DNA of 64,000 nt from Lachnospiraceae bacterium (GTDB lineage Bacteria > Bacillota > Clostridia > Lachnospirales > Lachnospiraceae): assembly GCA_028693165.1 (NCBI GenBank), contig JAQUVX010000011.1:43096-107095 (forward strand). Direction: 5' to 3'. This document shows positions 12,128 through 38,236 of this stretch, piece after piece. Position numbers and translations under genes: made by a program. The notes below the pieces were generated by a model that was not told the origin of the DNA, ran no database searches, and was given only the letters and a program-made list of their open reading frames with translations. Positions within the stretch are counted from its first letter, which is position 1; each line of letters opens with the position of its first letter.

Positions 12128-13103
12128 CCACTGTTCCCCTTGGGTTCGACAAAATTATTAGGAACTGTTTATACTGTTCTTCAGAGAAAAAATAACTTCT
12201 CGGATATTTTGCAATATCTAGCTTAGCAAAACCCGAAGTACGCAGTAACTCATAAGTCCTCTCATGCGCTAACCCCTTCATAGTATTTAACTGCCATAAG
12301 GAAAATTCCAGCGCCCAATTAACATATGCTTTCTTATATATTTCATATAATCCAACATCCTTTAATTCTTGCTGCATAGCCAGCAGAGCCACATAAAAAC
12401 AGTCCCAAGATTTTTCTCGCGTTGATGATAATGATGTTGAAATCTCAATTCTTTGATGCGCAAAAACCCGATCTAAAGCAACAATACGAGATGCCTTGGC
12501 TAATCCAATAAAAACAAAAAACATATCGTTTGTCGTTCGCAAATTCTGATATTTTAATCCCGTTTGTTCTACAAATTCACGTTTAAATAACTTATCCCAT
12601 GCCCACCCGTTATACATACGAAATATATTATCCCGATATTGTTCTTCATGTGGATCAAATGCTTTTTCCAACGGAAAATATTGTTTACGGAAAGACCATT
12701 GACAAGGCTCAAACCGACTTGTACTCTGAACAAAGAGATTTGCTGCAAACACACATATATCTGCACGCTCAACACTCGCTATACGATATGCCACCTCTAA
12801 CATATCTGGTTCAAAAAAATCATCTGAATCAAGAAATGATAAATATTCACCTTTTGCCACTTGCAATCCATTATTGCGTGCAGCACCAGCTCCTTGGTTT
12901 TTTTGATCTAAAATCTTTACTCGATTATCTTGCGCCTCATATTTCTTTAAAATTTCCAGCGAGGAATCTGTTGATCCATCATTTACACAAATGACTTCTA
13001 TCTCTCGCAATGTCTGATTCAAAACACTATCCAGGCATTCAGACAAATACTTTTCTGCATTATATATTGCTATAATTACGGAAACCTTTACATACTCTTT
13101 CAT
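12120..13103 (-). CDS. Family 2 glycosyltransferase
   Basis: A 327-residue GT2 with VSVIIAIYNAEKYLSECLDS at the N-terminus, CVNDGSTDSS, and the metal motif LDSDDFFEPD near residue 95. The C-terminal half is alpha-helical and lacks membrane segments. It corresponds in position and size to the GT2 at 3.1-4.1 kb. The ATG is adjacent to a GGGAG sequence with little spacing, so the exact start is uncertain by a few codons. It acts in the cytoplasm on an unknown donor and acceptor. Confidence 0.83.
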   Translation of the reverse strand: MKEYVKVSVIIAIYNAEKYLSECLDSVLNQTLREIEVICVNDGSTDSSLEILKKYEAQDNRVKILDQKNQGAGAARNNGLQVAKGEYLSFLDSDDFFEPDMLEVAYRIASVERADICVFAANLFVQSTSRFEPCQWSFRKQYFPLEKAFDPHEEQYRDNIFRMYNGWAWDKLFKREFVEQTGLKYQNLRTTNDMFFVFIGLAKASRIVALDRVFAHQRIEISTSLSSTREKSWDCFYVALLAMQQELKDVGLYEIYKKAYVNWALEFSLWQLNTMKGLAHERTYELLRTSGFAKLDIAKYPRSYFFSEEQYKQFLIILSNPRGTVDE

Positions 13104-13119
13104 CTCCCAAATTCAACCA

Positions 13120-14268
13120 TCACTTTCTCGATATAATCTCTCTAACCCGCCTCGGTATCGCTGTTATTATACGCCCTGCTTTAAACGATTTTGAGTTTTC
13201 CATGTCGTGGAACTGATGTTTCAAATCATCTAATTCTGCTTCTTTTTGCTGCAAAGCCTGAGCCATGTCTTCTGGCGTCTTGTAGATACCACAAACCTTG
13301 CTGCACTCCTCCAGATAATACCGATCCATTTCATGCATAATTCTTTGCAAATTATTCCAATTTTGCTCCGAAAAATAATCCTTATCCAAAGTATTCGCTT
13401 CTTCTGCCTTCAAATACTCTTTTCTCATCTCTAATAAAAAAGCGTATTTATAGCCAAATGATAACCGCTCTAAATTCCATCTATATGACTCATATTTCAA
13501 TGCATTCTTTAAGATTTCAAAGCATTCCTTTTTTTCAGGATTTTCCTCCAAATACTTTTCCATTTCACGATATTCGTCGCATAGGCAAAACACCTTTGCA
13601 CCGGATTTCACTGACGAATTCTCATTATCGACCCGATAGTGAAGATACGCTTCCTTTGTCAAATACACTCTTTCTGCGCTTGTCCAAACTTTAAATGCAA
13701 AAGAGGTATCCTGATAAGAGGCTCCTGGTGTTTCATTGAAGCGCACATTATTTTCTATAAGCATCTTTCGCCTGTAAATACCGCTCCATATGCATGGAGC
13801 AACACGCATAATATTCTTATATTCTTTCGGCGAAAATACCTCATCGTAATGATTATAAGGCTTAAGAACCTCAAAGAATGTGTTTTGTGGTTCTGGTTTT
13901 GATATATACCGATAATAATTAGCTTTTACAACATCTGCATCATTATCTTTGGCCATATTATATAGCTGTTCAAACATATCCTCCGACACATAATCATCCG
14001 TTTCAACAATGCCTATATATTCGCCTTCTGCCAAATCTAAGGCAACGTTCATACTATGCCCATATCCTGAGTTTGGTTTATGTACAATATGTACTCGGGG
14101 ATCTTTCCTTGCATAAAGATCCAGGATTTCCCCCGTACTATCTTTAGAGCCGTCATTAACACAAATAATTTCAATATCCTCTAATGTCTGAGAAATGACA
14201 CTTTTCATGCATTCATCAATGAACTTCTCCACATTACATGCCGGCATTAAAATTGAAACCTTCGCCAT
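13120..14268 (-). CDS. Family 2 glycosyltransferase with conserved C-terminal tail motif
   Basis: A 382-residue GT2 starting VSILMPACNVEKFIDECMKS, with CVNDGSKDST and VETDDYVSED as metal motif. The middle part (FNETPGASYQDTSFAFKVW, then LHYRVDNENSSV) is nearly superposable on the GT2 at 4.1-5.3 kb. A coiled stretch (about residues 330-355) leads to NSKSFKAGRIITAIPRRV at the C-terminus, a tail shared by three GT2 proteins of the operon that may contact the membrane or an assembly partner (inference). GGGAGGAAG precedes the ATG with good spacing. Confidence 0.85.
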   Translation of the reverse strand: MAKVSILMPACNVEKFIDECMKSVISQTLEDIEIICVNDGSKDSTGEILDLYARKDPRVHIVHKPNSGYGHSMNVALDLAEGEYIGIVETDDYVSEDMFEQLYNMAKDNDADVVKANYYRYISKPEPQNTFFEVLKPYNHYDEVFSPKEYKNIMRVAPCIWSGIYRRKMLIENNVRFNETPGASYQDTSFAFKVWTSAERVYLTKEAYLHYRVDNENSSVKSGAKVFCLCDEYREMEKYLEENPEKKECFEILKNALKYESYRWNLERLSFGYKYAFLLEMRKEYLKAEEANTLDKDYFSEQNWNNLQRIMHEMDRYYLEECSKVCGIYKTPEDMAQALQQKEAELDDLKHQFHDMENSKSFKAGRIITAIPRRVREIISRK

Positions 14269-23048: not shown

Positions 23049-23164
23049 TATCAATCCCTTAATTTCTTATCGTATATTACCATACAAAGCTCATCTGGCA
23101 GCACGCTTATGAAAATCCCTTTTCCTGTCCAAATATCCATGATAGGCGCAATAAACCTCAATAC

Positions 23165-23193
23165 AGTATACCATTTAACGTTTTTTTCCGCAA
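23165..23193 (-). promoter_or_regulatory. Sigma-A promoter of the polysaccharide operon
   Basis: On the minus strand TTGCGG is followed after 17 bases by TATACT, giving a predicted start about 110 bases upstream of the sugar transferase gene. It is the only convincing minus-strand promoter in this intergenic gap. Genes downstream are tightly packed, so it probably drives most of the operon. Confidence 0.65.
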
Positions 23194-23337
23194 CCTTTGT
23201 AAAGACGAAAAGAATTGGCAATCTTTTAATATTTTATTAATGTTTCCAATTCATAGAAAGATCGGATCAACTGTCACTTACCCATAAGGCAAATTTTCTG
23301 ATTTGACTTATAATCCCCCCTCAATTTCTCTCCACCA

Positions 23338-23540
23338 ATAATTTACCTTATCGGAAGTATAATTACCTCGTAATGCAATTTAGGAATTTTGAAAGAAATT
23401 TCAAAAAAAGAAAAAGGAGAGTGCATTAATTATGAGAAAGCAGACAAAATTAGTTGCAGTAACATCTGCAGCAGCCCTGCTCGCTATCGGCGCTTCCATG
23501 ACTTCTTTCGCAGCTACTGGCTGGGTAGAGGAAGATGGAA
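23338..23540 (+). repeat. Shared 5' block, copy A (silent-type switch site)
   Basis: This ~200 bp block, comprising a -10 box, untranslated leader and signal-peptide codons, recurs almost unchanged before genes B and C. In this copy TATAAT (23358-23363) is present, but the -35 position (23335-23340) reads CCAATA. The inverted repeat overlapping the -10 has a changed left arm (TTATCG instead of TTATAC; 23348-23362). The leader holds a hairpin (TTTTGAAA, GAAA loop, TTTCAAAA; 23387-23406) and AAGGAGAG. Upstream flank resembles that of copy B and differs from copy C. Confidence 0.85.
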
Positions 23541-25168
23541 CTTGGTACTTCTACGATAACGATGGCTCAAAAGTAACTGATGACTGGAAAAAATCTGGAG
23601 ACAACTGGTATTGGCTGGATGGCGAGGAAGATGGCGCTATGGCTATGGATAAGTTGGTCGAGGATGATGACGACACCTACTACGTTGACAGCACCGGTGT
23701 TATGGTAAAGAACACCTGGGTTAAGGTTGTTAACGAGGATCAGGATGATGATAGCGATCCGGCTGAGTATCACTACTACTATATGCAGTCCAATGGTAAA
23801 GCATATAAGCAGAAAGGCGATACCTTAAGCAAGAAGACCATCGATGGCAAGCAGTATGCATTTGATGCTGATGGCGTTATGTTATACGGCTGGGTTGACA
23901 AAACCGGCGAAATGCAGAACGATGATACCGGCTGGACTGGCGATGATGTAGTTTACTACTTCGGCGGCTGGGAAGATGGTTCCATGAAGACTGGTTGGCA
24001 GAGAATTTCTGTATATGATGATTCTTCCGATAAGGATGATGATTATGACTACTGGTTCAACTTCAAATCCAACGGACAGAAGAGAACCGACACCAACAAG
24101 AAGAAAATCAACAGCAAATACTATGCTTTTGATGAGCGTGGTGTAATGGTTTATGAGTGGTTCCAGACTTCTGCTTCTGAGTCTAATGCTTCACCTGCAT
24201 CTTGGAACTACTTCAGCAGTCCAGAAGATGGTGCTCGTATTTACAAGGGATGGTTCAAAGTGGCTCCGCCTACCGAGGACAACAGCTTCCTTGAGAGCGA
24301 TGATACCTTCGCAACATCTGATTCTGATGACGAGTCCGATAGATGGTACTACTCCGATGACGAAGGTCTGGTATCTGGTCAGATCAAGAAGATCAAAGGT
24401 AAATACTATGGCTTCTTCCCAGAGGGTACAAAAGCAGGTCGTATGCTGACTGGTCTGTGTGCACTGGAGATGGATGGCGAGAAGATCGTAAAGGTAATCG
24501 CTGATGATATGGATTCCGATGATCTGGACAACTTCATGGACAGCGACGATGCATTTAATGCACAGTCTGAAACCAACACTTATCTGTACTACTTCGGTAG
24601 CGATGCAGACAGCGATGGCGCTATGAAGACCGGTGCTGTAAATATCACACTGGATGGCGACAGCTATGCATTCTACTTCAACAAGACCGGCGGCGTTGAG
24701 TCCAAGGGCCGTGGTATCAACGGTGTTGATAGCAATGATTATGTATATCGCTATGGTCAGAAAGTGAAAGCTGATTCCGATGAGAAATTCATCCTGGTTT
24801 ACGCTAGCGCAGATTACGGTGATGACAGCGCGATTGTAGTTGATTATGATGGTAGTGATGTAAGAAAGGCAGCTAATGGCGGAGCCGTTGATTATCTGAC
24901 CGGACTGAGCTATCTGTCTGCTGACAGCTATGATCTGAAGAACAAAGATGGCGATACTGTTAGAGCCGTTGTAGGATTTGCAAAAGAGGATCTCTATCTT
25001 GTAAATACCAGCGGTAAGATCCAGAAGGCAGTAACTGCTAAGGTTGACGGCGATGACTGGTACTGGTACAGCACCAAGGATGATGGCGTAATGATGTACA
25101 CCAACAACAAGACCCTGACCGATACTGATCTGGCTAACAACAAATGGAAAGATTTACTTGCAAAATAA
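23432..25168 (+). CDS. Secreted cell-wall-repeat surface protein A
   Basis: A 578-residue exported protein. The signal peptide (MRKQTKLVAVTSAAALLAI, cleavage expected after SFA-A near residue 28) is followed by cell-wall/choline-binding type repeats. These have the pattern G-W-x-x-x-x-G-x-W-Y-[FY]-[YF]-D and repeated blocks such as YYMQSNGKAYK, YAFDADGVMLYGW and MKTGW. The repeats carry unusually many aspartates. No sortase motif or enzymatic domain is visible, so attachment is probably non-covalent, through repeats that may bind phosphocholine or another wall glycan. Its first ~35 codons are almost identical to genes B and C, after which the three diverge. Its 5' block lacks a good -35 box; a TATAAT further upstream (near 23311) might give weak expression. 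Confidence 0.85.
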   Translation: MRKQTKLVAVTSAAALLAIGASMTSFAATGWVEEDGTWYFYDNDGSKVTDDWKKSGDNWYWLDGEEDGAMAMDKLVEDDDDTYYVDSTGVMVKNTWVKVVNEDQDDDSDPAEYHYYYMQSNGKAYKQKGDTLSKKTIDGKQYAFDADGVMLYGWVDKTGEMQNDDTGWTGDDVVYYFGGWEDGSMKTGWQRISVYDDSSDKDDDYDYWFNFKSNGQKRTDTNKKKINSKYYAFDERGVMVYEWFQTSASESNASPASWNYFSSPEDGARIYKGWFKVAPPTEDNSFLESDDTFATSDSDDESDRWYYSDDEGLVSGQIKKIKGKYYGFFPEGTKAGRMLTGLCALEMDGEKIVKVIADDMDSDDLDNFMDSDDAFNAQSETNTYLYYFGSDADSDGAMKTGAVNITLDGDSYAFYFNKTGGVESKGRGINGVDSNDYVYRYGQKVKADSDEKFILVYASADYGDDSAIVVDYDGSDVRKAANGGAVDYLTGLSYLSADSYDLKNKDGDTVRAVVGFAKEDLYLVNTSGKIQKAVTAKVDGDDWYWYSTKDDGVMMYTNNKTLTDTDLANNKWKDLLAK

Positions 25169-25231
25169 TTTACTTTGATGAGTCTGTGACTATTGAGTAA
25201 ATTAAAGGAATATTTCTAAATTATTAAAAAG

Positions 25232-25273
25232 GAAGCTGTCGTGCTAATTACTTAGTACGGCAGCTTCTTTTTT
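25232..25273 (+). terminator. Rho-independent terminator after gene A
   Basis: GAAGCTG ... CAGCTTC stem extended by CGT/ACG with a short loop, followed by six or more T. It ends the gene A transcript before the recombinase gene. Confidence 0.85.
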
Positions 25274-25330
25274 GTTACTGTTTCTTAAAATCGGTAGTTA
25301 ATAGCAAGCACTTAGCCTATAAACTCTCTC

Positions 25331-25393
25331 TTATTTTTTGATCCAATCTTTCCAGTTATCAAGATCAGGACTCAGAGCAGTTGCGCCCTTCTT
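25331..25393 (-). pseudogene. 3' tail of a lost cell-wall-repeat gene, inverted
   Basis: The minus strand encodes KKGATALSPDLDNWKDWIKK followed by TAA. This resembles the C-terminal tails of proteins A (NNKWKDLLAK-stop) and B (DLDGWKKW). It is too short and has no start, so it is a leftover of a further homologue that once lay tail-to-tail with gene A, as gene C does with gene B. The match is short, so moderate confidence. Confidence 0.55.
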
Positions 25394-25423
25394 GAATATA
25401 AGGACTGAAATGCTCCACGCAAA

Positions 25424-25451
25424 TAGTCAATCCTGGCTTTTTCTGTATAAT
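25424..25451 (+). promoter_or_regulatory. Probable promoter of the recombinase gene
   Basis: TAGTCA, 16 bases, TATAAT; the -10 is perfect and the -35 matches four of six. An imperfect inverted repeat (GATAAAATGT / ACATTTATC, about 25460-25487) sits in the leader and could affect expression. Confidence 0.5.
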
Positions 25452-25512
25452 AAAGGGGCGATAAAATGTCCGTCATGTACATTTATCAGCTTTTATTACA
25501 AAGGAGAAGAAT

Positions 25513-26316
25513 ATGAACGAGGATTTTAAAGAGTACCTGCTGAATCAGAATCTATCAGCGAACACGGTTACATCCTATTTATGCGCCATAAAGCAATATG
25601 CAAATAGGTACAACGATATAACTCAACACAATTTGCGGGATTATAAAGCATTTTTGATGGAAGATTATAAACCGCAGACAGTCAACTTGCGGGTCAGAGC
25701 CATAAACTGCTATCTGGAAAGCATTGGAAAAGAGAATTGGAAACTGTCTTCTGTCAAGGTTCAGCAGAAACCGTTTCTGGAGAATGTCATTAGCGAGGCG
25801 GATTACCTTTATTTTAAAAATTGCCTGAAACGTGACGATGAACTGTATTGGTATTTTGTGGTTCGCTTTCTGGCCGCCACGGGTGCCAGGGTCAGTGAAC
25901 TGGTACAGATCAAGACAGAGCATGTCAAGATCGGATATCTGGATCTTTATGCAAAAGGTGGCAAATTGCGAAGAATTTATATTCCGGCAGTTCTACAAAA
26001 AGAAGCTCTGGTATGGCTAAAAGACTCGGACAAGCAAAGCGGATTTATCTTTTTAAACAAATATGGAGATCGTATTACTGCGAGAGGGATTGCCGGTCAA
26101 TTAAAGCACATGGCAATTCGATACGATCTGGATCCGACCGTGGTGTATCCGCATTCATTTAGGCATCGTTTCGCCAAGAATTTTCTGGAGCGGTACAATG
26201 ATATCGCTTTGTTGGCGGATCTCATGGGGCATGAAAGCATTGAGACAACGCGTATCTATCTGAGAAAAACGAGTACCGAGCAACAAAATTTGGTAAATGA
26301 AATCGTAGATTGGTAA
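25513..26316 (+). CDS. Tyrosine site-specific recombinase
   Basis: A 267-residue integrase-fold protein. Residues 1-80 form the SAM-like core-binding domain (NLSANTVTSYLCAIKQY). The catalytic domain shows the first arginine in ATGARVSELVQI, the H-x-x-R box in PHSFRHRFAKNF, the second histidine in LMGHESIETT and the tyrosine nucleophile in TRIYLRKT. All catalytic residues are present, so it should be active. Size and lack of phage or conjugation genes nearby fit a stand-alone DNA-inversion recombinase rather than an element integrase. It lies between homologous surface-protein genes whose 5' blocks contain inverted repeats, the expected arrangement for a phase-variation switch. AAGGAGAAG precedes the ATG. 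Confidence 0.9.
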   Translation: MNEDFKEYLLNQNLSANTVTSYLCAIKQYANRYNDITQHNLRDYKAFLMEDYKPQTVNLRVRAINCYLESIGKENWKLSSVKVQQKPFLENVISEADYLYFKNCLKRDDELYWYFVVRFLAATGARVSELVQIKTEHVKIGYLDLYAKGGKLRRIYIPAVLQKEALVWLKDSDKQSGFIFLNKYGDRITARGIAGQLKHMAIRYDLDPTVVYPHSFRHRFAKNFLERYNDIALLADLMGHESIETTRIYLRKTSTEQQNLVNEIVDW

Positions 26317-26373
26317 TTGCCGTCGTCAAGATGGTTTGGCCTTCAAGCATCATCTAAAATATATAGAAAGTGA

Positions 26374-26418
26374 AAGCCACCGTGCTGGGATACCTTAGTA
26401 TCTCTAACGCGGTGGCTT
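26374..26418 (+). terminator. Hairpin between recombinase and wzy-like gene
   Basis: AAGCCACCG pairs with CGGTGGCTT, with an inner GATAC/GTATC stem. The genes on both sides converge here, so it probably ends transcription from either side, although the U-tract is weak. Confidence 0.6.
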
Positions 26419-26449
26419 AATTCAACGATATAGCTCTATTGTTAACGAA

Positions 26450-28069
26450 TTATTGCAACTTCTTGTCCTTACACATAGAAACACCTGCGCTCAGCAGCAG
26501 CCACATCATCGGTGTAGCAATCGGCAGATTCAAGTTCACAATCGCCTGAAATGCGTAGCACAAAACCGCACACAGACAGCCTAAAATCAATGGATTTTTT
26601 GCATTATTTTTTATCATCCGATAACAAGAACTAATTAAAAATGTCATATAAGCGATAACTCCGAAAAGTCCAATCGTCACAAGAAACTGCAAATATTCAT
26701 TGTGTGCACTGTCAAAAACCTGCCCGGTCACCTCGGTCATTTCACCTCGGAAATTTCGGACTGTCAAAATGCCAAAGGTATCCGGACCATATCCAAATAT
26801 TTTTTTCATAATTGGGAACTCCTGATACAGTTCAAACGATTTGCGCCAGATATAACCGCGATTTGTACCCCATGCATCACTAAACACCAGGTACTTGCCT
26901 AGGCTGCCATAACGAGTTCCATTACCGGCAACGTTGGCATCAAACAGCATAAAGCAAACAACTAGAATTCCAAACATCATAAGAGCTGTCCAACAGTATA
27001 CAAGCCGTCTGCCAAGCTCTGGGTTATCGTTCTTACCTTTGCACACAAAGAAATAGAATGCAGCAGCCAGAATCCACAAACCTATTACAATGATCATCAA
27101 GCCGCCAAAATTCACCATTAGATTGAACAAACTGTCCAGCCCAATTACGACATTGGCAAACTTCTGGTTAATCCAGTCAATGCATTGGATTACGGTCATA
27201 AATGTCGCTAGGATAATTAGATAACGCAATACGCCCTGCCGGTTTCGGAACAGCATAAAGGGCAGAAACGCGAACAGTGCACCAATCGCAAGATACGCAT
27301 TATCGCTACAGCCCATGATAATTGCGAAAAAAGTTACTACCATACAGATGTAATACCATACAGATACCAACTTGTTTTTCGCTGTTGCAAACAACGCTGT
27401 TGCAAAGCCCATCAGAATCGCCACGTATGCGGTATACGTATTGATATTACCAACTGTAGAAGTAAACATTGTGGACTGCTCCGGCTTAATCTTTCCCCTG
27501 AAGTTCAATATATCCATCTGAAAATAGTCGGTAATTCCAATATAGCACATTATCATTCCGCTGATCAGGAATAGCTGTAAAATCCAGCTTTTCGCCTTCC
27601 AGAAGCGGCTGATGATAAAGTAGAAGGCTACATACAAGGTGATCAAAAACAATCCGCTGTATCGTCCTTCATTTCCCCAAAATGCCTCAAACAAGTATTT
27701 TGACTGCAGCGTAGAAATCAGACAAATGATCCAAAATATAATTACCGCCAGATCCGCCAAGCAAAACGTGGTTTTCCAGTTCTTCGGCGCAAGTTTGGAA
27801 AACAGTTTTTTAGCATGTTCTCCGCCGAATTCCTTAAGATCAACAAACAGCATGATGGTCGACAGCAGTAAAATGATTGTAATCATTCCAAGCACTGGTA
27901 TATAAAACCATTTATATTTGGTCTCCAGAATATTAAAATAAGAATTATCATAAACAAGCGGGAATACGGTGACCAGTATGAACAGAAAGAATGTAATCAC
28001 ATTACTGATCAGGGAGGAACAGGTGGTCGCAAAACTGTCCTGCTTTCCTATCATTTCCTTTTTTGCCAT
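26450..28069 (-). CDS. O-antigen polymerase/ligase family membrane protein (Wzy/WaaL-like)
   Basis: About 539 residues with roughly twelve membrane segments and a periplasmic-type loop (around FGYGPDTFGILTVRN, then FDSAHNEYLQFLVTIGLFG near residue 455-475). That HNEYLQ pattern is the hallmark of the O-antigen ligase/polymerase (Wzy_C) family. It would polymerise or attach lipid-linked repeats outside the membrane. The ATG has GGAGGAAG ahead; the longer TTG start is unlikely. It has its own promoter and lies apart from the main polysaccharide operon, between the recombinase and surface gene B, inside the segment that an A-C inversion would flip. Confidence 0.85.
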   Translation of the reverse strand: MAKKEMIGKQDSFATTCSSLISNVITFFLFILVTVFPLVYDNSYFNILETKYKWFYIPVLGMITIILLLSTIMLFVDLKEFGGEHAKKLFSKLAPKNWKTTFCLADLAVIIFWIICLISTLQSKYLFEAFWGNEGRYSGLFLITLYVAFYFIISRFWKAKSWILQLFLISGMIMCYIGITDYFQMDILNFRGKIKPEQSTMFTSTVGNINTYTAYVAILMGFATALFATAKNKLVSVWYYICMVVTFFAIIMGCSDNAYLAIGALFAFLPFMLFRNRQGVLRYLIILATFMTVIQCIDWINQKFANVVIGLDSLFNLMVNFGGLMIIVIGLWILAAAFYFFVCKGKNDNPELGRRLVYCWTALMMFGILVVCFMLFDANVAGNGTRYGSLGKYLVFSDAWGTNRGYIWRKSFELYQEFPIMKKIFGYGPDTFGILTVRNFRGEMTEVTGQVFDSAHNEYLQFLVTIGLFGVIAYMTFLISSCYRMIKNNAKNPLILGCLCAVLCYAFQAIVNLNLPIATPMMWLLLSAGVSMCKDKKLQ

Positions 28070-28121
28070 AACAGCTTCCTCCAATTATTTTCTATGCATG
28101 CCTCGATCCGCACACGTTTAT

Positions 28122-28150
28122 ATCATAACATTGAATCCCTTTTTTCGCAA
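28122..28150 (-). promoter_or_regulatory. Promoter of the wzy-like gene
   Basis: Minus-strand TTGCGA, 17 bases, TATGAT, about 50 bases upstream of the start codon. It ends about 14 bases before shared block B begins, so the wzy promoter and the B switch site diverge from the same short region. Confidence 0.6.
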
Positions 28151-28163
28151 TTCCTCCTCACCA

Positions 28164-28366
28164 ATAATTTACCTTATACGAAGTATAATTACCTCGTAAT
28201 GCAATTTAGGAATTTTGAAAGAAATTTCAAAAAAAGAAAAAGGAGAGTGCATTAATTATGAGAAAGCAGACAAAATTAGTTGCAGTAACAGCTGCAGCAG
28301 CCCTGCTCGCTATCGGCGCTTCCATGACTTCTTTCGCAGCTACTGGCTGGGTAGAGGAAGATGGAA
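28164..28366 (+). repeat. Shared 5' block, copy B (silent-type switch site)
   Basis: The perfect inverted repeat TTATAC-GAA-GTATAA lies at 28174-28188 and overlaps TATAAT (28184-28189). A second small one, ATTAC-CTC-GTAAT, follows directly (28188-28200). The -35 position (28161-28166) is CCAATA, as in copy A, so no complete promoter is seen. Leader hairpin at 28213-28232 and AAGGAGAG are identical to the other copies, as are most of the signal-peptide codons. Confidence 0.87.
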
Positions 28367-30033
28367 CCTGGTACTTCTATGATAACGATGGAAATCGCGT
28401 AGAAGACGAGTGGAAGAAATCAGGAGATAACTGGTACTGGTTAGACAGCGAAGAGAGTGGCGCAATGGCTACCGATAAGCTGATCGAAGATGACGACGAT
28501 ACCTACTATGTTGACTCCACTGGTGTTATGGTAAAGAATACCTGGGTTAAGGTAGTAAACGAAGATCAGGATGATGATGAGGATCCGGCTGAGTATCATT
28601 ACTACTATATGCAGAACAATGGTAAAGCTTACAAGAATGGCGACGCTAGTACTATTAAGAAAAAAGTCATTGATGGAAAAACTTATGCATTTGATGATGA
28701 AGGTATCATGGTATATGGTTGGGTTGATGCATCCGGAGATCGTCTGACCGGCGATGACGGATGGGCTGAGGGAGCTGGCGATGCAGATGCTCACACCTAC
28801 TACTTCGGCAGCTGGGAAGATGGTTCTATGAAGACTGGTTGGCAGAAGATCACCGTCTATGATGATACTGACGGAAAAGAAGATGACTATGACTACTGGT
28901 TCAACTTCAAGTCTAACGGCAGAGTTCGTAAGATGGATGATGAATGGAAATCTAACGGTAAATATTATCGTTTTGATGATCGCGGTGTAATGGTTTATCA
29001 GTGGTCCATGACCAATGCAAGTGATTCTAATGCATCCACTTCTAACTGGGCATACTTCAACAGCCCAGAAGATGGCGCACGTCTGACCAAGGGTTGGTTC
29101 AAGGTTGTTGCTCCTAACGAGGACAATACTTTTGTCGAAAGTGATGATGACACCTTCGCAGTTGGCGATGCTGATGAAGAGAATGAGCGTTGGTACTATG
29201 CTGATGGTGACGGTAAGATCGCATCTGGCGAGATCAAAAAAATCAAAGGCAAATACTATGGTTTCTGGCCGGAGGGTACCGATAAAGCAGGCGCAATGCT
29301 GAAAGGTCTGTGTGCACTGAAAGTTGCAGAGGATGGCTCGATCTCTAAAGTAATTAAATGGGATATGGACGCCGATGATCTTGACGATTGCATGGACAAC
29401 GAAGGAGATTTCGAAAACAAGATGGTTGACGGTGCATCTCTGTATTACTTTGGCGATGAAGATACTGATGGCTCTCTTCATACCGGTAATGTTAATCTGA
29501 ATCTGGATGGCGATAGTTATACTTTCACCTTCAGCAAGACAGGCGGTGCAGAAGGCAGAGGTAAAGGACTTACCGGCGTTGACGATGGCAAGTACATCTA
29601 TAAGTTTGGTAAGAGAATGAAAGCTGATTCTGATGAGAAGTACATTGTAGTTAAAGCTTCCAACACAACTACTGGTGCTAGCAATGACACTGGCTCTGAT
29701 GGTGTGGTAGTTGAAGAGATCGATGCTGCTGATCTTCGCAAGAAGGCTCAGCCTGCTGGAAGAAACAAAGACGGTGATACCGTTCGTTTCGTAGGACAGG
29801 AAAATACCGCTTGGGATACTGACTATTATCTGGTCAATACTGCTGGTAGTATTCAGGGCGATAAGACCGCAGCTAAAGATGGTGATGACTGGTACTTCTA
29901 CACCAATGACGATCAGATTTACATGTATACCAATAACAAGACTCTGAAGGGCAACGACGAGTATACGATGACTGTTGATCTGGACGGCTGGAAAAAGTGG
30001 ACTCCAACCAATACTACTGATCCGTTATCCTAA
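28258..30033 (+). CDS. Secreted cell-wall-repeat surface protein B
   Basis: A 591-residue homologue of protein A with the same signal peptide (cut expected after SFA-A) and the same order of wall-binding repeats (YFYDNDG, WYWLDSEESGAMATD, YYMQNNGKAYK, MKTGWQK, YNSPEDGAR-type blocks). It is rich in aspartate. Sequence diverges from A and C in the middle and towards the C-terminus, which ends in a short unique tail (PTNTTDPLS). No catalytic domain or LPXTG is visible. The gene lies tail-to-tail with gene C. Its 5' block lacks a -35 box, so in the assembled orientation it is predicted to be off or low. Confidence 0.85.
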   Translation: MRKQTKLVAVTAAAALLAIGASMTSFAATGWVEEDGTWYFYDNDGNRVEDEWKKSGDNWYWLDSEESGAMATDKLIEDDDDTYYVDSTGVMVKNTWVKVVNEDQDDDEDPAEYHYYYMQNNGKAYKNGDASTIKKKVIDGKTYAFDDEGIMVYGWVDASGDRLTGDDGWAEGAGDADAHTYYFGSWEDGSMKTGWQKITVYDDTDGKEDDYDYWFNFKSNGRVRKMDDEWKSNGKYYRFDDRGVMVYQWSMTNASDSNASTSNWAYFNSPEDGARLTKGWFKVVAPNEDNTFVESDDDTFAVGDADEENERWYYADGDGKIASGEIKKIKGKYYGFWPEGTDKAGAMLKGLCALKVAEDGSISKVIKWDMDADDLDDCMDNEGDFENKMVDGASLYYFGDEDTDGSLHTGNVNLNLDGDSYTFTFSKTGGAEGRGKGLTGVDDGKYIYKFGKRMKADSDEKYIVVKASNTTTGASNDTGSDGVVVEEIDAADLRKKAQPAGRNKDGDTVRFVGQENTAWDTDYYLVNTAGSIQGDKTAAKDGDDWYFYTNDDQIYMYTNNKTLKGNDEYTMTVDLDGWKKWTPTNTTDPLS

Positions 30034-30075
30034 TTGTTACTGATTTATAAGATTGGTTAGTTCATTGTAATGAAG

Positions 30076-30119
30076 AGGAACTATGGAAGATATGAAAATA
30101 TTTTCTATAGTTCCTTTTT
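30076..30119 (+). terminator. Terminator after gene B
   Basis: AGGAACTAT pairs with ATAGTTCCT, followed by a run of five T. Confidence 0.8.
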
Positions 30120-30169
30120 GATTTTCATGATTTTTAACAAAAACGCGTACATAAGAAATTTCAACAAAA

Positions 30170-30209
30170 GAGCCCCCACTCCCCAGGGATACCCAGGAAG
30201 TGGAAGCTC
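30170..30209 (-). terminator. Terminator after gene C
   Basis: On the minus strand GAGC..CCACT..CCTGG pairs with the mirrored CCAGG..AGTGG..GCTC and is followed by TTTT. Converges with the gene B terminator. Confidence 0.75.
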
Positions 30210-30223
30210 GAGATTAATGGCAA

Positions 30224-31873
30224 TTATTTGTTCTGTTCAATTGCTTTCTCAACATTCTTGTCATCAGCATAGTAAGTAACCTTGCCTTCGCTGTCAGAGA
30301 AGAAATACCAATCTTCGCCATCTTTCACACCGTTAGCTTTGGTCTTAACCTTACCATTAGTACCGATCAGGTACAGGTCTTTGCCAGTCAGATCGTAGTA
30401 TTTGATCTTGGTCTCGCTAGACTTACCTTCGTTGTAGACAACAGTTTGTGCGGAACCACCAGCAAGACTCAGCATCTCAGAACGAGTAACGAAAGTAGCA
30501 CTGTCATCGCTATCGACGTCAGCTGCTCTGTACTTATCTTCAGAGTTTGCGGACATCTTCATGCCGTACTTGTAGTAAACTTTCTTGGTAATACCATTCT
30601 TACCAGCGCCTACGTTTCCAACGCCACCAGAAGTGCTGAAGTTGAAGGTATAGCTGGAACCGTCAACACTCATAGATACATTACCGGTCTTCAGAGCACC
30701 ATCAGAATCTACGTTACCCGGATTACCGAAGTAATACAGTGTACCCGGATTCGTGATCTTGCCATCTTTCAGATCATCAAGATAATCCGCATCAATAGAA
30801 GTATCTGCATCACGGTTGTCGTTCTCTTTTGCGTAGATAGCATCGATTACGCCATTGTCATCAACAGACATATGAACCAGACCGCTCAGCATTGCGCCAT
30901 ACTCGTCAAAGCCGTAGTATTTTCCTTTGATCTTGGAGATCTCGCTAACTTTCAGGCTGCCATCTGAGTCAGCATAGTACCACTGAGCCTCATCATTTCC
31001 GTCGGAAGACATCTCTACGTCGAATGCTTTCTTAGGAGTTACTTTGAACCAGCCCTTGGTTTTGCGAGCACCCTCTTCAGCGGAGTTGAAATATTTCCAA
31101 GCGCTTGCAGATGCAGTATCAGATGCTGAAGCCTCTGCTAACCACTTGTAGTACATCTCACCATCAGCGGTGAATGCATAGCGGCTACCATTGATACGGA
31201 CGGTATCATCTGCATCGCTGGTGCCGGTTCTCTTAACGCCATTGCTTCCGAAGTAGAACCAGTACTCTGCGTCCTCATCCTCGTTGTCCCAACCATCATA
31301 TACGTTCAGGAACTGCCAGTTAGTCTTCATAGCTCCGTCTTCCCAGCTACCGAAGTAGTTAGTAGCGGTCTTCCAGCCATCATCTTCGGACATCAGGCTG
31401 TTGGTCTCTTTGTCAACCCAACCATACAGCATCTTGCCGTCTGAATCGAAAGCATATTTCTTGCCATCGATGGTCTTCTTGGAGAAGGTATCGCTCTTGT
31501 ATGCTTTACCGTTGGACTGCATATAGTAGTAACGATACTCAGCCGGATCGGTATCATCATCCTGATCCTCGTTAACAACCTTAACCCAGGTGTTTTTTAC
31601 CATAACACCAGTGGAGTCGACATAGTAGGTATCGCTGCCATCTTCAACTAAAAAGTCGGTTGCCATAGCACCGCCGTCCTCGCCGTTCAGCCAATACCAG
31701 TTGTCTCCAGATTTTTTCCACTCGTCGGTTACTCTGTTGCCATCTTTGTCATAGTAGCACCAAACTCCATCTTCTTCTACCCAGCCAGTAGCTGCGAAAG
31801 AAGTCATGGAAGCGCCGATAGCGAGCAGGGCTGCTGCAGCTGTTACTGCAGCTAATTTTGTCTGCTTTCTCAT
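30224..31873 (-). CDS. Secreted cell-wall-repeat surface protein C
   Basis: A 549-residue exported homologue of A and B with the same signal peptide and repeat order (WCYYDKDG, WYWLNGEDGGAMATD, YYMQSNGKAYK, MLYGWVDK, MKTNWQF). The rest is diverged: its C-terminal part contains a different block (ADVDSDDSATFVTRSEMLSL) and ends VEKAIEQNK. No enzymatic domain or sortase signal is visible, so non-covalent wall binding is expected. It is on the opposite strand to A and B, and its 5' block is the only one completed by a -35 box. It is therefore the member predicted to be expressed in this assembly. Confidence 0.85.
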   Translation of the reverse strand: MRKQTKLAAVTAAAALLAIGASMTSFAATGWVEEDGVWCYYDKDGNRVTDEWKKSGDNWYWLNGEDGGAMATDFLVEDGSDTYYVDSTGVMVKNTWVKVVNEDQDDDTDPAEYRYYYMQSNGKAYKSDTFSKKTIDGKKYAFDSDGKMLYGWVDKETNSLMSEDDGWKTATNYFGSWEDGAMKTNWQFLNVYDGWDNEDEDAEYWFYFGSNGVKRTGTSDADDTVRINGSRYAFTADGEMYYKWLAEASASDTASASAWKYFNSAEEGARKTKGWFKVTPKKAFDVEMSSDGNDEAQWYYADSDGSLKVSEISKIKGKYYGFDEYGAMLSGLVHMSVDDNGVIDAIYAKENDNRDADTSIDADYLDDLKDGKITNPGTLYYFGNPGNVDSDGALKTGNVSMSVDGSSYTFNFSTSGGVGNVGAGKNGITKKVYYKYGMKMSANSEDKYRAADVDSDDSATFVTRSEMLSLAGGSAQTVVYNEGKSSETKIKYYDLTGKDLYLIGTNGKVKTKANGVKDGEDWYFFSDSEGKVTYYADDKNVEKAIEQNK

Positions 31874-31967
31874 AATTAATGCACTCTCCTTTTTCTTTTT
31901 TTGAAATTTCTTTCAAAATTCCTAAATTGCATTACGAGGTAATTATACTTCGTATAAGGTAAATTAT
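31765..31967 (-). repeat. Shared 5' block, copy C (expression-site copy)
   Basis: Inverted relative to copies A and B. The inverted repeat TTATAC-GAA-GTATAA (minus-strand reading; 31943-31957), leader hairpin (31899-31918), ribosome site and signal-peptide codons match copy B. Homology to the other copies stops at ATAATTT, exactly inside the -35 hexamer; beyond it the flank is unrelated. Confidence 0.87.
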
Positions 31968-31970
31968 CAA
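31942..31970 (-). promoter_or_regulatory. Complete sigma-A promoter of the switchable locus
   Basis: Minus strand: TTGATA (31965-31970), 17-base spacer, TATAAT (31942-31947). The first three bases of the -35 box belong to the unique flank and the last three to the shared block. The promoter is thus formed only at the junction with this flank. Confidence 0.8.
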
Positions 31971-32180
31971 TAGTTTTTTTACATTTTTTCGTTGTTTTGG
32001 AATAAATGTAAATACTTTGATATACCAGCAGAAGCTACCACCTCTCCATCACATTGACAGTATAATATACTTTTTCGTGAAATGCTATAACGAAACCCTA
32101 AGCGTTTTCTTACGAAAACCTTACGGAAGGCGAAGTTTTTCCGTAAATTGTATTAATATCGATACAATCTTTGATTTTCT

Positions 32181-32209: not shown

Positions 32210-32261
32210 GTTCATAAGATTTTGATTTTTCTATTTTTTGAACATCTTTGGAGGTATTCCT

Positions 32262-34031
32262 ATGAATCGAATGGCACTGATTTGTCGTTGTATAAAAGAG
32301 AATCCGCGCAGCACGCAGCGGGAAATTGCACAGAAGCTGGAGCTGTCCCTGGGGACAATTAATACTTTAATAAAGGAATGTATGCAGGCGCGCCTGATTG
32401 CGCAGGGTAAAAGCGTGGCCGGAACCTATGAGCTGACGATTTCCGGTGAACAGTTTCTGGAAACATTTCGGGTGGATGGCGCGCTGATCATCGCAGCGGG
32501 ATTCGGATCGCGTTTCGTCCCGCTGACGTTTGAGATGCCGAAAGGACTTCTGGAGGTGTTCGGCGAGCGCATGATCGAGCGGCAGATCCGTCAGCTGCAC
32601 GAGGTGGGTATCACGGACATTACCATTGCCGTGGGGTACCTTAAGGAGAAATTTGAATACCTGATTGACAAGTATCAGGTAAAGCTTCTATATAATCCGG
32701 AGTATTCCTGCAAGAATACACTGACCACCATCCACCGTGCAGGCAAGCTCCTGAAGGGGCGCAATATGTATGTGTTGTCCTCCGACAACTGGCTGCGTGA
32801 GAATATGTTCCACAAGTATGAGTGCGGTGCCTGGTATGCATCCTCTTATATGGAAGGAGACACTTCGGAATGGGTTCTTTCTTCTAATAAGAAGGGGCGC
32901 ATTACCGACGTACAGATCGGCGGGCGGGATGCCTGGGTGATGTATGGACCGGTTTATTTCTCACGGGAGTTCTCAGAAAGGTTTCTCCCGCTGCTCGACG
33001 CGGCCTATCACACACCGGGGACGGAGCAGTTTTACTGGGAAAATATCCTGATTCAGCATCTTGATGAGCTGGAAATCTCAATCAATCGTCAGCCGGCGGA
33101 GCAGATCTATGAATTTGAAAATCTGGAGGAGCTGCGTCAATTTGATCCGCGTTATCAGAATCGTTCGGATAACAAGGCCATGGAACTGATTGCGGAGGTT
33201 TTTCAGGTGTCGGAATCGGAAATTCACGATATCCGGTGTCTGAAGGCAGGCATGACCAACAAATCCTTTCTTTTTCAGGTCAAGGGGCGGCATTACATCT
33301 GCCGGATTCCCGGGCCGGGGACGGAGCTGCTGATCAATCGCCAGCAGGAGGCTTCTGTCTATGAGGCGATCCGGCCGCTGGAAATTTCCGAGCATATTCT
33401 GTATATGAACGGGCGGACCGGTTATAAGATTGCTGAGTATTACGAGGGCGCTGTCAATTCCAGCGCAGACAACTGGGAGGAGGTCGCGGCCTGCATGAAG
33501 CTCCTGCACCGGCTACATGATTGCAGGATTACGGTGGCACATGAGTTTGATATGCGGGAACGAATTTCTTTCTATGAGCGGCTCTGTACGGCGCATAACG
33601 GTCCCCTGTTTGAGGATTATGAGACCGTACACGGGTGGATGGAGGAATTGATGGACCACCTGGATGCTTTGCAGCGACCAAAGACCTTGTCACACATCGA
33701 CAGTGTTGCAGATAATTTCCTGTTTTTGCCGGATGGTTCGGTGCGGCTGATCGACTGGGAATATGCAGGTATGTGTGATCCGCTGATCGACGTGGCCATG
33801 TGCGCGATCTATTCTTATTATGATGAGGCGGCGGTGGAACGGCTGATTCAGATTTATCTTGGACGCGAAGCCACTGGGGAAGAGCAGTTTGTGATCTATG
33901 CCTATATTGCGCTGGGCGGTTTCCTTTGGAGTCTCTGGGCTGTGTACAAAGCATCGCTTGGAGAGGAGTTTGGCGAATACACCTTGATCATGTATCGGTA
34001 CGCAAAGAAGTATTATCACAAATTACGTTGA
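32262..34031 (+). CDS. Winged-helix / CTP:phosphocholine cytidylyltransferase / choline kinase fusion (LicC-LicA)
   Basis: About 589 residues in three parts. Residues 1-70 form a MarR-like winged helix (NPRSTQREIAQKLELSLGTI). Residues ~75-305 are a nucleotidyltransferase (IIAAGFGSRFVPLTFEMPKG, SSDNW metal site). Residues ~310-589 are a choline/ethanolamine kinase fold with the catalytic loop LSHIDSVADNFL and the metal motif IDWEYAGM. The last two activities together make CDP-choline from choline, used to decorate surface glycans with phosphocholine. The start follows GGAGG by 7 bases; an in-frame TTG further upstream is rejected. A fourth cell-wall-repeat gene follows on the same strand, which fits repeats that bind phosphocholine. 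No licB or licD gene is in the window. Confidence 0.85.
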   Translation: MNRMALICRCIKENPRSTQREIAQKLELSLGTINTLIKECMQARLIAQGKSVAGTYELTISGEQFLETFRVDGALIIAAGFGSRFVPLTFEMPKGLLEVFGERMIERQIRQLHEVGITDITIAVGYLKEKFEYLIDKYQVKLLYNPEYSCKNTLTTIHRAGKLLKGRNMYVLSSDNWLRENMFHKYECGAWYASSYMEGDTSEWVLSSNKKGRITDVQIGGRDAWVMYGPVYFSREFSERFLPLLDAAYHTPGTEQFYWENILIQHLDELEISINRQPAEQIYEFENLEELRQFDPRYQNRSDNKAMELIAEVFQVSESEIHDIRCLKAGMTNKSFLFQVKGRHYICRIPGPGTELLINRQQEASVYEAIRPLEISEHILYMNGRTGYKIAEYYEGAVNSSADNWEEVAACMKLLHRLHDCRITVAHEFDMRERISFYERLCTAHNGPLFEDYETVHGWMEELMDHLDALQRPKTLSHIDSVADNFLFLPDGSVRLIDWEYAGMCDPLIDVAMCAIYSYYDEAAVERLIQIYLGREATGEEQFVIYAYIALGGFLWSLWAVYKASLGEEFGEYTLIMYRYAKKYYHKLR

Positions 34032-34132: not shown

Positions 34133-35293
34133 ATGAAAAGCAGACGACGTCTGACGGCAATGGCGCTTGCCGGAATGATGGGGGCGATGTCTCTTGCTTC
34201 CAGTTTTACAGCTTATGCTGCCACCGGGTGGGTGAAAAGCGGCAACTCTTATGTTTATTATGATGCAGATGGTTCTCTCCACAAGGGATGGGTCAACACC
34301 TCTGACGGATATTATTACATGAACCTTTCAACCGGGGCGATGACCTTTGGCTGGAGTCAGATCAACAACAAGTGGTATTATTTCCAGAGCAGCGGTGTCA
34401 TGGCAACTGGTTGGGTCAATGACAACGGTACCTATTATTACACGCAGACCGACGGCACGATGGCGACGGGCTGGATAAAGATGGACAACAACTATTACTA
34501 TTTGAAGGACAACGGTGCTATGGCGACCGGGTGGTACTCCATGGACAATGCCTGGTACTATTTTGATCCTTCGAATGGTGTCTGCACGGTCAACACGGCG
34601 CGGGATGTCGATGGTTCCTGGTATCTCTTCGGCACGGACGGCAAGATGCTGACCGGGTGGCAGCAAGTGGGCGGCTATTATTTCTACTTCCATACGGACG
34701 GCAAGATGCTGACCGGGTGGCTGAGTGATGGCACCAACAAATATTATATGGATCCGGGTAGTGGACGCATGGCCACCGGATGGCATCAGATTGATAATGC
34801 GTATTATTTCTTCAACAATTCCGGGCATCGGCTGACCGGGTGGATTCAGAACGACGGTTCTTACTACTATCTGGATCCGAGTGTGGACGGCAAGATGGTA
34901 GCGGGCACAACCAGAACGATCGGCGGTGTCTCCTATACCTTCGCCTCCAACGGTGCCTGCAATACCGGCAACATCAGCGGCGCAGTGAACACCAGCACGA
35001 ATACGAATACCGGTACGGGTAACAATACGTCCACAGCTCCGGGTGGTACCTCTTCGGGTACGACATCCGGCAGCCCTTCCGGGAACACATGGCCCGGATC
35101 TTCCGGCACCCCGTCTTCCGATAAGACAGATTACTCTACCGGCGGACCTGGTGTGGCAGGCGGCGGAACCTCACCCTCTACCAATTCCAATCCGAGCAAT
35201 TCCAACAACACGACTCCGGGTGGTTCCACAACTCCGGGCAGTTCTTCGGGATACAACTTACAGCCGGGACTGACAAGCGGACCAAGACCATAA
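34133..35293 (+). CDS. Secreted cell-wall/choline-binding repeat protein with low-complexity tail
   Basis: A 386-residue exported protein. The signal peptide ends near TAYA-A (residue 29). About twelve wall-binding repeats follow (GWVNTSDGYYYM, GWSQINNKWYYF, ATGWVNDNGTYYY and so on) up to about residue 285, then a Ser/Thr/Gly/Pro/Asn-rich tail. These repeats are closer to the classical choline-binding consensus than those of A-C and are not aspartate-rich. Its signal peptide and 5' region differ from the switch family, so it is outside the switch. AAGGAGGATTAC precedes the ATG; a TATAAT at 34083-34088 is a likely -10. It lies right after the phosphocholine-activation gene. Confidence 0.85.
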   Translation: MKSRRRLTAMALAGMMGAMSLASSFTAYAATGWVKSGNSYVYYDADGSLHKGWVNTSDGYYYMNLSTGAMTFGWSQINNKWYYFQSSGVMATGWVNDNGTYYYTQTDGTMATGWIKMDNNYYYLKDNGAMATGWYSMDNAWYYFDPSNGVCTVNTARDVDGSWYLFGTDGKMLTGWQQVGGYYFYFHTDGKMLTGWLSDGTNKYYMDPGSGRMATGWHQIDNAYYFFNNSGHRLTGWIQNDGSYYYLDPSVDGKMVAGTTRTIGGVSYTFASNGACNTGNISGAVNTSTNTNTGTGNNTSTAPGGTSSGTTSGSPSGNTWPGSSGTPSSDKTDYSTGGPGVAGGGTSPSTNSNPSNSNNTTPGGSTTPGSSSGYNLQPGLTSGPRP

Positions 35294-37642: not shown

Positions 37643-38236
37643 CTACACGATACACAGATGCTTTTTGATATCCCTGACTTCCATCCTCAGATTGAGAATT
37701 TCAAGTTCGTTGTGCTCTCTTGTCGGCTTGTCCAGCAGGGCTTCGTCCAGCCGGTGGTTGAGAAAATCATGACCTTCACCGATCGTCATGATCATGGGCA
37801 CAAATTCGTTCTCGATCCTGAGATTTAAATCGCGAAGTCCCATTCTGACTTCATCGATTCCAGCCTGGAGCTCTGCCTGCGTCTCGTGAAGTTCTGCTCT
37901 GACCCCATCAATGCCAGCCTGAAGCTCTGCCTTCGTCTCGTGGAGCTCTGTCCTGACTTCCGCAATTCCAGCCTGGAGTTCTGCTTTCGTCTCGTGGAGC
38001 TCTGTCCTGACTTCCGCAATGCCAGCCTGAAGCTCTGCTTTCGTCTCGCGGAGCTCTGTCCTGACTTCCGCAATGCCAGCCTGAAGCTCTGCCTTCGTCT
38101 CGTGGAGCTCTGTCCTGACTTCCGCAATGCCAGCCTGAAGCTCTGCTTTCGTCTCGTGGAGCTCTGTCCTGACTTCCGCAATATCAGCTGACATCCCATC
38201 CATCTTTTGAAGCAGCAAGGTTTCAAACTCCGTCAT
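37643..38236 (-). CDS. Coiled-coil protein with six 18-residue repeats, function unknown
   Basis: A 197-residue protein not recognised as a named family. After 18 leader residues come six near-identical units (IAEVRTELHETKAELQAG and variants) and a partial seventh (IDEVRMGLRDLNLRI), then a non-repetitive end (FVPMIMTIGEGHDFLNHRLD). Eighteen residues equal five turns of alpha helix, so the units should stack into one long amphipathic rod. No signal peptide or membrane segment is seen. GGGGG lies ahead of the ATG. The DNA repeat makes the length likely to vary between strains. Confidence 0.7.
   Translation of the reverse strand: MTEFETLLLQKMDGMSADIAEVRTELHETKAELQAGIAEVRTELHETKAELQAGIAEVRTELRETKAELQAGIAEVRTELHETKAELQAGIAEVRTELHETKAELQAGIDGVRAELHETQAELQAGIDEVRMGLRDLNLRIENEFVPMIMTIGEGHDFLNHRLDEALLDKPTREHNELEILNLRMEVRDIKKHLCIV
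37859..38182 (-). repeat. Tandem 54-bp repeat, six units, inside the coiled-coil gene
   Basis: Six head-to-tail units of 54 bp encode the 18-residue helix repeat. Units differ by only a few substitutions, the last being most diverged. Such repeats change copy number by slippage or recombination without shifting the frame. Confidence 0.9.

Follow-up and report, generated by a model that had tools for sequence, protein, structure and literature searches.

A predicted one-promoter switch for choline-binding-type surface proteins in Lachnospiraceae that appears to share recombinase and target site with hsdS inversion loci

Surface-protein genes, promoter and recombinase at the locus

We analyzed a stretch of 64,000 nucleotides (nt) of a Lachnospiraceae bacterium (assembly GCA_028693165.1, contig JAQUVX010000011.1, positions 43,096 to 107,095), which is called the window throughout. 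It contains three genes for choline-binding-type surface proteins (A, B, and C), a tyrosine recombinase gene between A and B, and a candidate recombination site in front of each surface gene. The arrangement suggests an expression switch in which one of the three genes at a time would use the single complete promoter. The features on which this reading is based are as follows:

23338..23363, plus strand: site of A (ATAATTTACCTTATCGGAAG) and -10 box TATAAT; CCAATA and no -35 box; predicted silent
23432..25168, plus strand: gene A, choline-binding-type surface protein of 578 amino acids (aa), silent position
25513..26316, plus strand: tyrosine recombinase of 267 aa between A and B, with many relatives in hsdS loci
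28164..28189, plus strand: site of B (ATAATTTACCTTATACGAAG, identical to that of C) and -10 box TATAAT; no -35 box; predicted silent
28258..30033, plus strand: gene B, choline-binding-type surface protein of 591 aa, silent position
30224..31873, minus strand: gene C, choline-binding-type surface protein of 549 aa, predicted to be expressed
31942..31967, minus strand: site of C and -10 box TATAAT, within the complete promoter
31965..31970, minus strand: -35 box TTGATA, with TTG from the fixed flank and ATA from the movable site
31968..32012, minus strand: fixed A/T-rich flank with TATTG at its end (the ON flank), present once per genome in relatives

The initial annotation had described a common 5' block of the three genes, and its repeat structure was confirmed. 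A and C form an inverted repeat pair (23338-23809 vs. 31496-31967; 472 nt, 89% identity) and so do B and C (28164-28636 vs. 31495-31967; 473 nt, 88%); A and B form a direct repeat pair that encloses the recombinase gene. The 3.6-Mb assembly carries three copies of the block, every one at this locus. Counted from ATAATTTACC, B and C share 116 identical nucleotides, and over this length A differs from them by two bases (CG, not AC), both of which lie within the site. The leaders of the three genes are identical; A and B also match C in signal peptide and ribosome site, and their reading frames are intact.

When we searched the promoter regions in three scans, TTGATA-17-TATAAT at 31970-31942 of the minus strand agreed with the consensus at 11 of 12 positions and all other matches at 9 of 12. 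A and B carry CCAATA at the corresponding -35 place, and exactly one complete promoter is present among the three genes as judged by sequence pattern. Two earlier statements, that only C has a -35 box and that the homology ends inside this hexamer, were thus borne out: the common stretch runs from ATAATTTACC, and the junction is TTG|ATA. Upstream of ATAATT, the flank of C differs from those of A and B. The latter two resemble each other as had been noted, but this likeness extends over only about 16 base pairs (bp). Since the homology starts at ATAATTTACC, the exchange site would be located in the promoter spacer. An invertible-promoter element was rejected because the promoter flank is fixed, with the TTG of the -35 box outside the exchanged segment.

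The conserved form of the site is ATAATNNNCNTTATNNGAAG rather than the palindrome TTATACGAAGTATAA. This 15-bp palindrome corresponds to the inverted repeat of the initial annotation; it is exact in B and C, but not in A or in the listed sites of relatives. As recombination target it was rejected: few loci were marked when up to two mismatches were allowed, and its middle differs from genome to genome. A leader hairpin had also been noted. We folded five leaders (window 28192-28260 and 31871-31939; L034:19619-19687; L049:5101-5170; L135:4313-4381), and in all five the best fold comprised an outer stem around the ribosome site and an inner hairpin of changed sequence. The leaders hardly beat shuffled sequences (z-scores of -0.24 to -1.35, no leader clearly better alone), and a leader RNA switch was dropped because of these weak z-scores.

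The recombinase is complete, as had been claimed, and contains Phage_integrase and SAM-like domains. In an alignment of 13 recombinases including that of the window, seven residues (R126, K148, K151, H214, R217, H240, Y249) were invariant, which we take to be the catalytic positions. The assignment of A, B, and C to the choline-binding proteins held as well: their repeats scored 49-52 bits against PF19127 at a cut-off of 27. A structure model of gene C was a beta-hairpin fold (mean predicted local distance difference test score 79.7, predicted template modeling score 0.60), and Foldseek returned choline-binding modules together with other repeat solenoids at low template modeling scores. Toxin entries among these hits were read as the common repeat-solenoid fold only, and a toxin identity was set aside. 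The repeats and an adjoining choline-kinase-domain protein suggest that the surface proteins may bind choline.

Moving gene bodies and fixed flanks in related genomes

To describe the recurrence of the locus, we list three further genes of the window, two of which mark the positions of the surface genes:

26450..28084, minus strand: Wzy_C/O-antigen-ligase-like membrane protein, which marks the silent position of B and occurs in several relatives
32238..34031, plus strand: protein with helix-turn-helix (HTH), nucleotidyltransferase and choline-kinase domains, divergent from the ON promoter; the usual neighbor of the ON flank
34133..35293, plus strand: choline-binding-repeat protein without site; a conserved neighbor outside the exchange

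Among 24 genomes of the genus, 16 carry a close recombinase; apart from the window's own enzyme, the best match in each genome is 64-82% identical. The core-site pattern gave 38 matches in 14 genomes compared with 5 for the reversed control, and one of the 38 (L089) looks like a chance match. The ON-flank pattern STATTGATAATTNNCCTT was found exactly once in 10 of the 24 genomes and never twice, with no control matches. With a stricter pattern of the promoter-embedded site we obtained 19 matches, compared with none in the control; they fall in nine genomes from seven genera, out of 397 genomes searched in the family. Eight genomes outside the genus (G093, G166, G196, G315, G329, G407, G408, G444) have one ON flank each, a count that comes from pattern matches and regions read rather than from a separate whole-genome search; the ninth, G443, has an OFF site only. 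A close recombinase is present in eight of these nine. In 17 of the 18 genomes with an ON flank (exception G166), it adjoins the HTH/nucleotidyltransferase/choline-kinase-domain gene, and silent copies adjoin a Wzy-like gene in the window (B), G018, G093, G315, G329, and G407. Viral contigs gave no match to the ON-promoter pattern.

The most direct indication of exchange came from two genomes of the genus Hungatella, G407 and G093. Identity between the two genomes is 89.6% over 383 bp for the ON flanks and 82.6% over 235 bp for the flanks on the Wzy side, both lengths including the common block. The ON body of G407 is the orthologue of a silent G093 body (77.8% of 523 aa) and, reciprocally, the ON body of G093 is the orthologue of a silent G407 body (93% of 556 aa); between the two ON bodies, identity reaches only about 49%. 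In the ON/OFF comparisons of this pair, the 81 to 87 bp from site to start codon are 100% identical. Comparison of related genomes for swapped bodies, which had been proposed as a check, was thus positive, and the reciprocal exchange between orthologous flanks, together with one ON flank per genome in 18 genomes, supports the inversion switch that had been suggested. This evidence for body exchange at the promoter comes solely from genomes within a single genus. We placed the 24 bodies that reach 450 aa in a tree. Within the window's genus, G001 holds a silent body of C type and G014 has one of A/B type at the ON position (support 84/89 only), and no fewer than three ON/OFF label changes are required by the supported branches.

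The identity values follow the same division between block, body, and flank. For 22 listed genes (short, cut, or edge-near ones left out), identity of the 5' untranslated regions (UTRs) was 0.994 within genomes vs. 0.760 between them, and that of body residues 300-500 differed little (0.576 vs. 0.548). Flank identity was 0.563 for ON-ON pairs (between genomes), 0.310 for OFF-OFF, and 0.145 for ON-OFF pairs. Of 20 OFF sites, 13 had the same middle bases as the ON site of their own genome, and such matches occurred in six of seven genomes (permutation p about 0.003-0.004). This test covered seven genomes and left out a G007 remnant with an inserted base, the chance-like L089 match of G014, three genomes without a usable second site (G009, G017, G010), and five with OFF sites but no ON flank (G002, G003, G011, G020, G023). 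Such a match is the trace that would be expected of a tyrosine recombinase that needs matched crossover bases. Breaks at repeats are expected in short-read assemblies, and those seen here (e.g., G022 C74) were therefore set aside as evidence of inversion.

Several observations concern the surroundings of the sites. ATPase-type genes repeatedly lie between sites (G018 L034:6036-7430 and 12796-14010; G022 L038:313-1980), and the three scanned carry ATPase_2/DUF234, AAA_14/DUF4143, and AAA-ATPase_like/PDDEXK_9 domains; by look, similar genes are present in G093 (L213:11236-12654) and G315 (L208/L209). Elsewhere in the window, 37643-38236 encodes a protein that is largely a series of near-identical repeats of 18 residues (AEVRTELHETKAELQAGI) and probably forms a coiled coil.

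Recombinase and target site in hsdS loci

The initial annotation had left the recombinase target as an assumption; we identified it by way of the hsdS loci in which related recombinases lie. There, conservation of the motif DNLPYEK/DNTPYEK/DNSHYEK extends to its nucleotides. We counted codons in 66 of the 68 instances found, which stem from 26 hsdS loci and are not independent because the loci are related. TAT was used in 66/66, GAT in 64/66, and AAT in 63/66 instances, GAG in 53/66 (background 0.32), and AAG in 47/66 (background 0.28). An hsdS-type DNA site like ATAATTTGCCTTATGAGAAG, which codes for DNLPYEK, was present in 29 of 41 hsdS loci (77 matches vs. none for the reversed pattern), and several silent hsdS pieces start exactly at this site.

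When we searched the window for ATAATTTGCCTTATGAGAAG with up to three mismatches, the only matches were the sites of A, B, and C, with three mismatches each (shuffle expectation 0.00). Both kinds of gene also share the same step in identity. For copies of the DNLPYEK/DNTPYEK type (10 pairs), identity is 0.22-0.56 to the left of ATAAT, 1.0 within it and 0.88-0.89 over the next 70 bp; for the surface-gene copies (20 pairs), it rises at the same step from 0.31-0.54 to 0.93-1.0. DNSHYEK-type copies are conserved on the opposite side (0.81-0.90 left, 0.55 right; 16 pairs). The exact hsdS-type site was not found in G000, and a promoter-borne site of G023 carries the hsdS middle bases GA. From the exclusive matches at A, B, and C and the common identity step, it follows that ATAATNNNCNTTATNNGAAG is very probably the target of one and the same recombinase family in either setting, as codons in hsdS and as promoter spacer in front of the surface genes. 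As far as sequence can tell, the hsdS-type target is common to the surface switch and the hsdS-inversion recombinases.

For the phylogeny of the enzyme, relatives were collected from a scan of named genomes, of which the best 80 of 492 loci were used, so that the tree samples near relatives only. It contains 87 of 103 recombinase frames, after removal of identical ones and those shorter than 240 aa. Of these, 40 have an hsdS-like frame as neighbor and 21 a choline-binding-type gene; the remaining 26 have neither. One group of 25 (support 99/95) is made up of the 21 choline-binding-linked recombinases and four of the same genus. Among the 62 outside this group are the 40 hsdS-linked ones, and the root of the tree cannot be fixed. 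The hsdS labels derive from a profile of four hsdS frames; Methylase_S domains were found in seven of seven HsdS proteins checked (seven loci), and one neighbor is an HsdM-type methylase. The hsdS-linked recombinases are 67-73% identical to the window enzyme, which indicates kinship with the hsdS-inversion recombinases. Reading of the frames near the window locus revealed no hsdS-like frame, and the enzyme accordingly does not seem to act on hsdS there. A search of viral contigs for the recombinase yielded two loci, one of them labeled hsdS-linked.

Recombinases with this 67-73% identity are present in hsdS loci across phyla: in Pasteurellaceae (L117, L121, L138, L152, L157, L166), Gastranaerophilales (L142/L150), an archaeal metagenome-assembled genome (MAG) of Methanimicrococcus (L119), and a Flavobacteriaceae MAG (L158). 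This distribution suggests wide transfer of the hsdS inversion cassette across phyla and into one archaeal MAG, with some MAG contigs possibly misbinned. Seven recombinases of Lachnospiraceae and kin (L111, L116, L137, L143, L145, L160, L167; support 100/98) have a largely conserved neighborhood without hsdS or choline-binding genes and may represent a third use of the enzyme family. Those of Lapin MAGs (L124, L127, L136, L139, L141, L147) form a group with 100/100 support, without hsdS nearby, and an element CNTTTTATGAAGTATAAT recurs about 7-9 kb away in L127, L136, and L147. In G166 (C6:98283-99991), two adjacent recombinase frames (identity 52% over almost the full length, 61% over residues 75-267) lie on the contig whose ON gene adjoins ribosomal-protein genes.

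Proposed switch, alternatives, and known systems

We propose that the locus is a one-of-several expression switch in which exchange by the recombinase at the promoter-spacer site selects the surface gene to be expressed, and we put the probability of this reading at about 0.87. The fixed flank beside the choline-kinase-domain gene would supply TTG, the first half of the -35 box. Each gene would form a movable cassette of the site ATAATTTACCTTATNNGAAG (which includes ATA and the spacer), TATAAT, leader, ribosome site, signal peptide, and body. By exchanging strands between inverted copies of the site, the tyrosine recombinase would bring another body to the fixed flank, where it would gain the complete promoter, and the previous body would fall silent. 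Inversion between B and C (28164-31967) would place B under the promoter and should occur, as their sites are identical. An exchange between A and C (23338-31967) would have to cross the two-base mismatch, and A should therefore swap poorly or rarely with C by site-specific recombination. The mismatch between A and B would also disfavor deletion of the recombinase between the direct repeats. We infer that the enzyme is paired with this site and that only the ON gene is transcribed.

The strongest competitor, which we nevertheless regard as unlikely, is homologous recombination or gene conversion between the long 5' repeats, with the site as a mere conserved promoter element. The repeats of about 470 nt at 88-89% identity speak for such a process, and the homogenized 5' UTRs fit conversion too. 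However, homology and the hsdS-type site have a common left edge in both kinds of gene, the middle bases match within genomes, and the recombinase largely tracks the sites (exceptions G009 and G408). Less probable still is a fixed family in which only C is expressed, A and B are decaying or separately regulated, and rearrangements are old and rare. The intact frames of A and B with the signal peptide and ribosome site of C, the identical leaders, and the reciprocal ON/OFF exchange in the Hungatella pair are at odds with it, even though the C orthologue is ON in both G000 and G018, G018 holds a broken copy (L034:4473-5901), and G009, G010, and G444 look degraded. We give the least credence to transcription of A, B, and C each from its own start, for instance from an upstream promoter, which would make the -35 difference irrelevant. 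The scan of the B region gave three promoter-like matches (shuffles 0.8, standard deviation 0.8), two on the minus strand and one on the plus strand upstream of B (28063-28091, 9 of 12 positions, weak). Upstream of A, no plus-strand match was found in 23100-23500, and the silent flanks are unlike each other and unlike the ON flanks, which resemble one another.

The plus-strand match upstream of B also counts against the switch, and so do several other findings. No ON flank was found in 14 of the 24 genus genomes, which reflects either draft breaks at repeats or real absence. G009 has an ON gene without a close recombinase, in G444 the ON frame runs for only 65 codons, and in G010 (L045:10548-10645) the ON flank is intact but the -10 box is degraded to TAGGAT. 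In G093 and G407 a distance of about 48-58 kb separates the recombinase from the sites on the same contig. Direct repeats of the site would also permit deletions, and G018 has direct site repeats with equal middle bases. Shuffling of the labels on the body tree gave 79 of 500 and was not significant. The ON bodies of G000 and G018 are orthologous (83%) and four of seven full ON bodies belong to one lineage; because of these two findings, switching may be slow. Moreover, 12 of 41 hsdS loci lack the hsdS-type site, including all six of Pasteurellaceae, the archaeal MAG, and Ruminococcus bicirculans, so that other branches of the recombinase must use other sites. As a side observation, G010 may carry a locked-off expression site, and it has a second cluster (L041).

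The recombinase and target of the switch appear to be common with the hsdS-inversion machinery of type I restriction loci. The switch probably reuses this enzyme and site inside a promoter, and both probably derive from the hsdS machinery, the direction of descent being our inference. We lean toward a more general formulation, in which the enzyme family and its 20-bp target form a portable grammar recruited as a unit into the spacer of a sigma-70-type promoter to give a surface-protein selector. Enzyme and target would co-diverge, and the middle bases would act as a per-genome compatibility code that chooses the callable silent genes and limits harmful deletions. If this is true, a shuffler of DNA specificity was turned into a one-of-many selector of surface proteins, with a target that doubles as the DNLPYEK codons in hsdS. 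For surface variation of gut Lachnospiraceae, the analysis names an enzyme and a site of 20 bp and offers a simple genomic test (the body adjoining the TATTG|ATAATT flank), and metagenome reads could be scored directly for switching; it also suggests how a restriction system could hand on a recombinase, together with its target, to a surface switch.

Recombination of the sap S-layer genes of Campylobacter fetus is RecA-dependent. In sap, transcription is confined to the homologue that directly follows one conserved promoter, and homologues are exchanged, which resembles the present locus in the single promoter and differs from it in that the products are S-layer proteins (PMC3887049). The proposed switch would work like the vpma family of Mycoplasma agalactiae, which is also served by one promoter and in which inversions by Xer1 pick the expressed surface gene; disruption of the recombinase locks expression (PMC2268961). 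Likenesses are the one promoter, the nearby tyrosine recombinase, and sites just upstream of the genes. However, vpma involves another enzyme, its site lies at -72 to -1 before the start codon and not between the -35 and -10 boxes, and its products are lipoproteins of a wall-less host (PMC2268961). HvsR of Mycoplasma pulmonis was reported to control both the vsa and hsd loci (PMC2268961). By description, this link of one recombinase with surface-protein and hsd loci parallels the hsdS link found here, but there one enzyme serves two loci, whereas here a branch of an hsdS-linked family has the same recognizable site in promoters.

PsrA/CreX of Streptococcus pneumoniae is a tyrosine recombinase in a type I locus that inverts parts of hsdS, with a shortest inverted repeat of 15 bp (PMC7096588; PMC6620402). 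Many relatives of the window enzyme likewise lie in type I restriction loci; PsrA, in contrast to the proposed switch, targets coding sequence and thereby changes DNA specificity (PMC7096588). Invertons of gut bacteria, including ones that intersect hsdS, invert site-specifically near surface genes, and in promoter invertons the promoter segment flips, whereas here the promoter flank would stay fixed and the gene bodies would move (PMC11892184). In the open-licence literature we found no description of such a one-promoter switch for gut Lachnospiraceae, Hungatella included. The switch proposed here differs from the known ones in its enzyme branch, its promoter-spacer site, its protein family, and its hosts.

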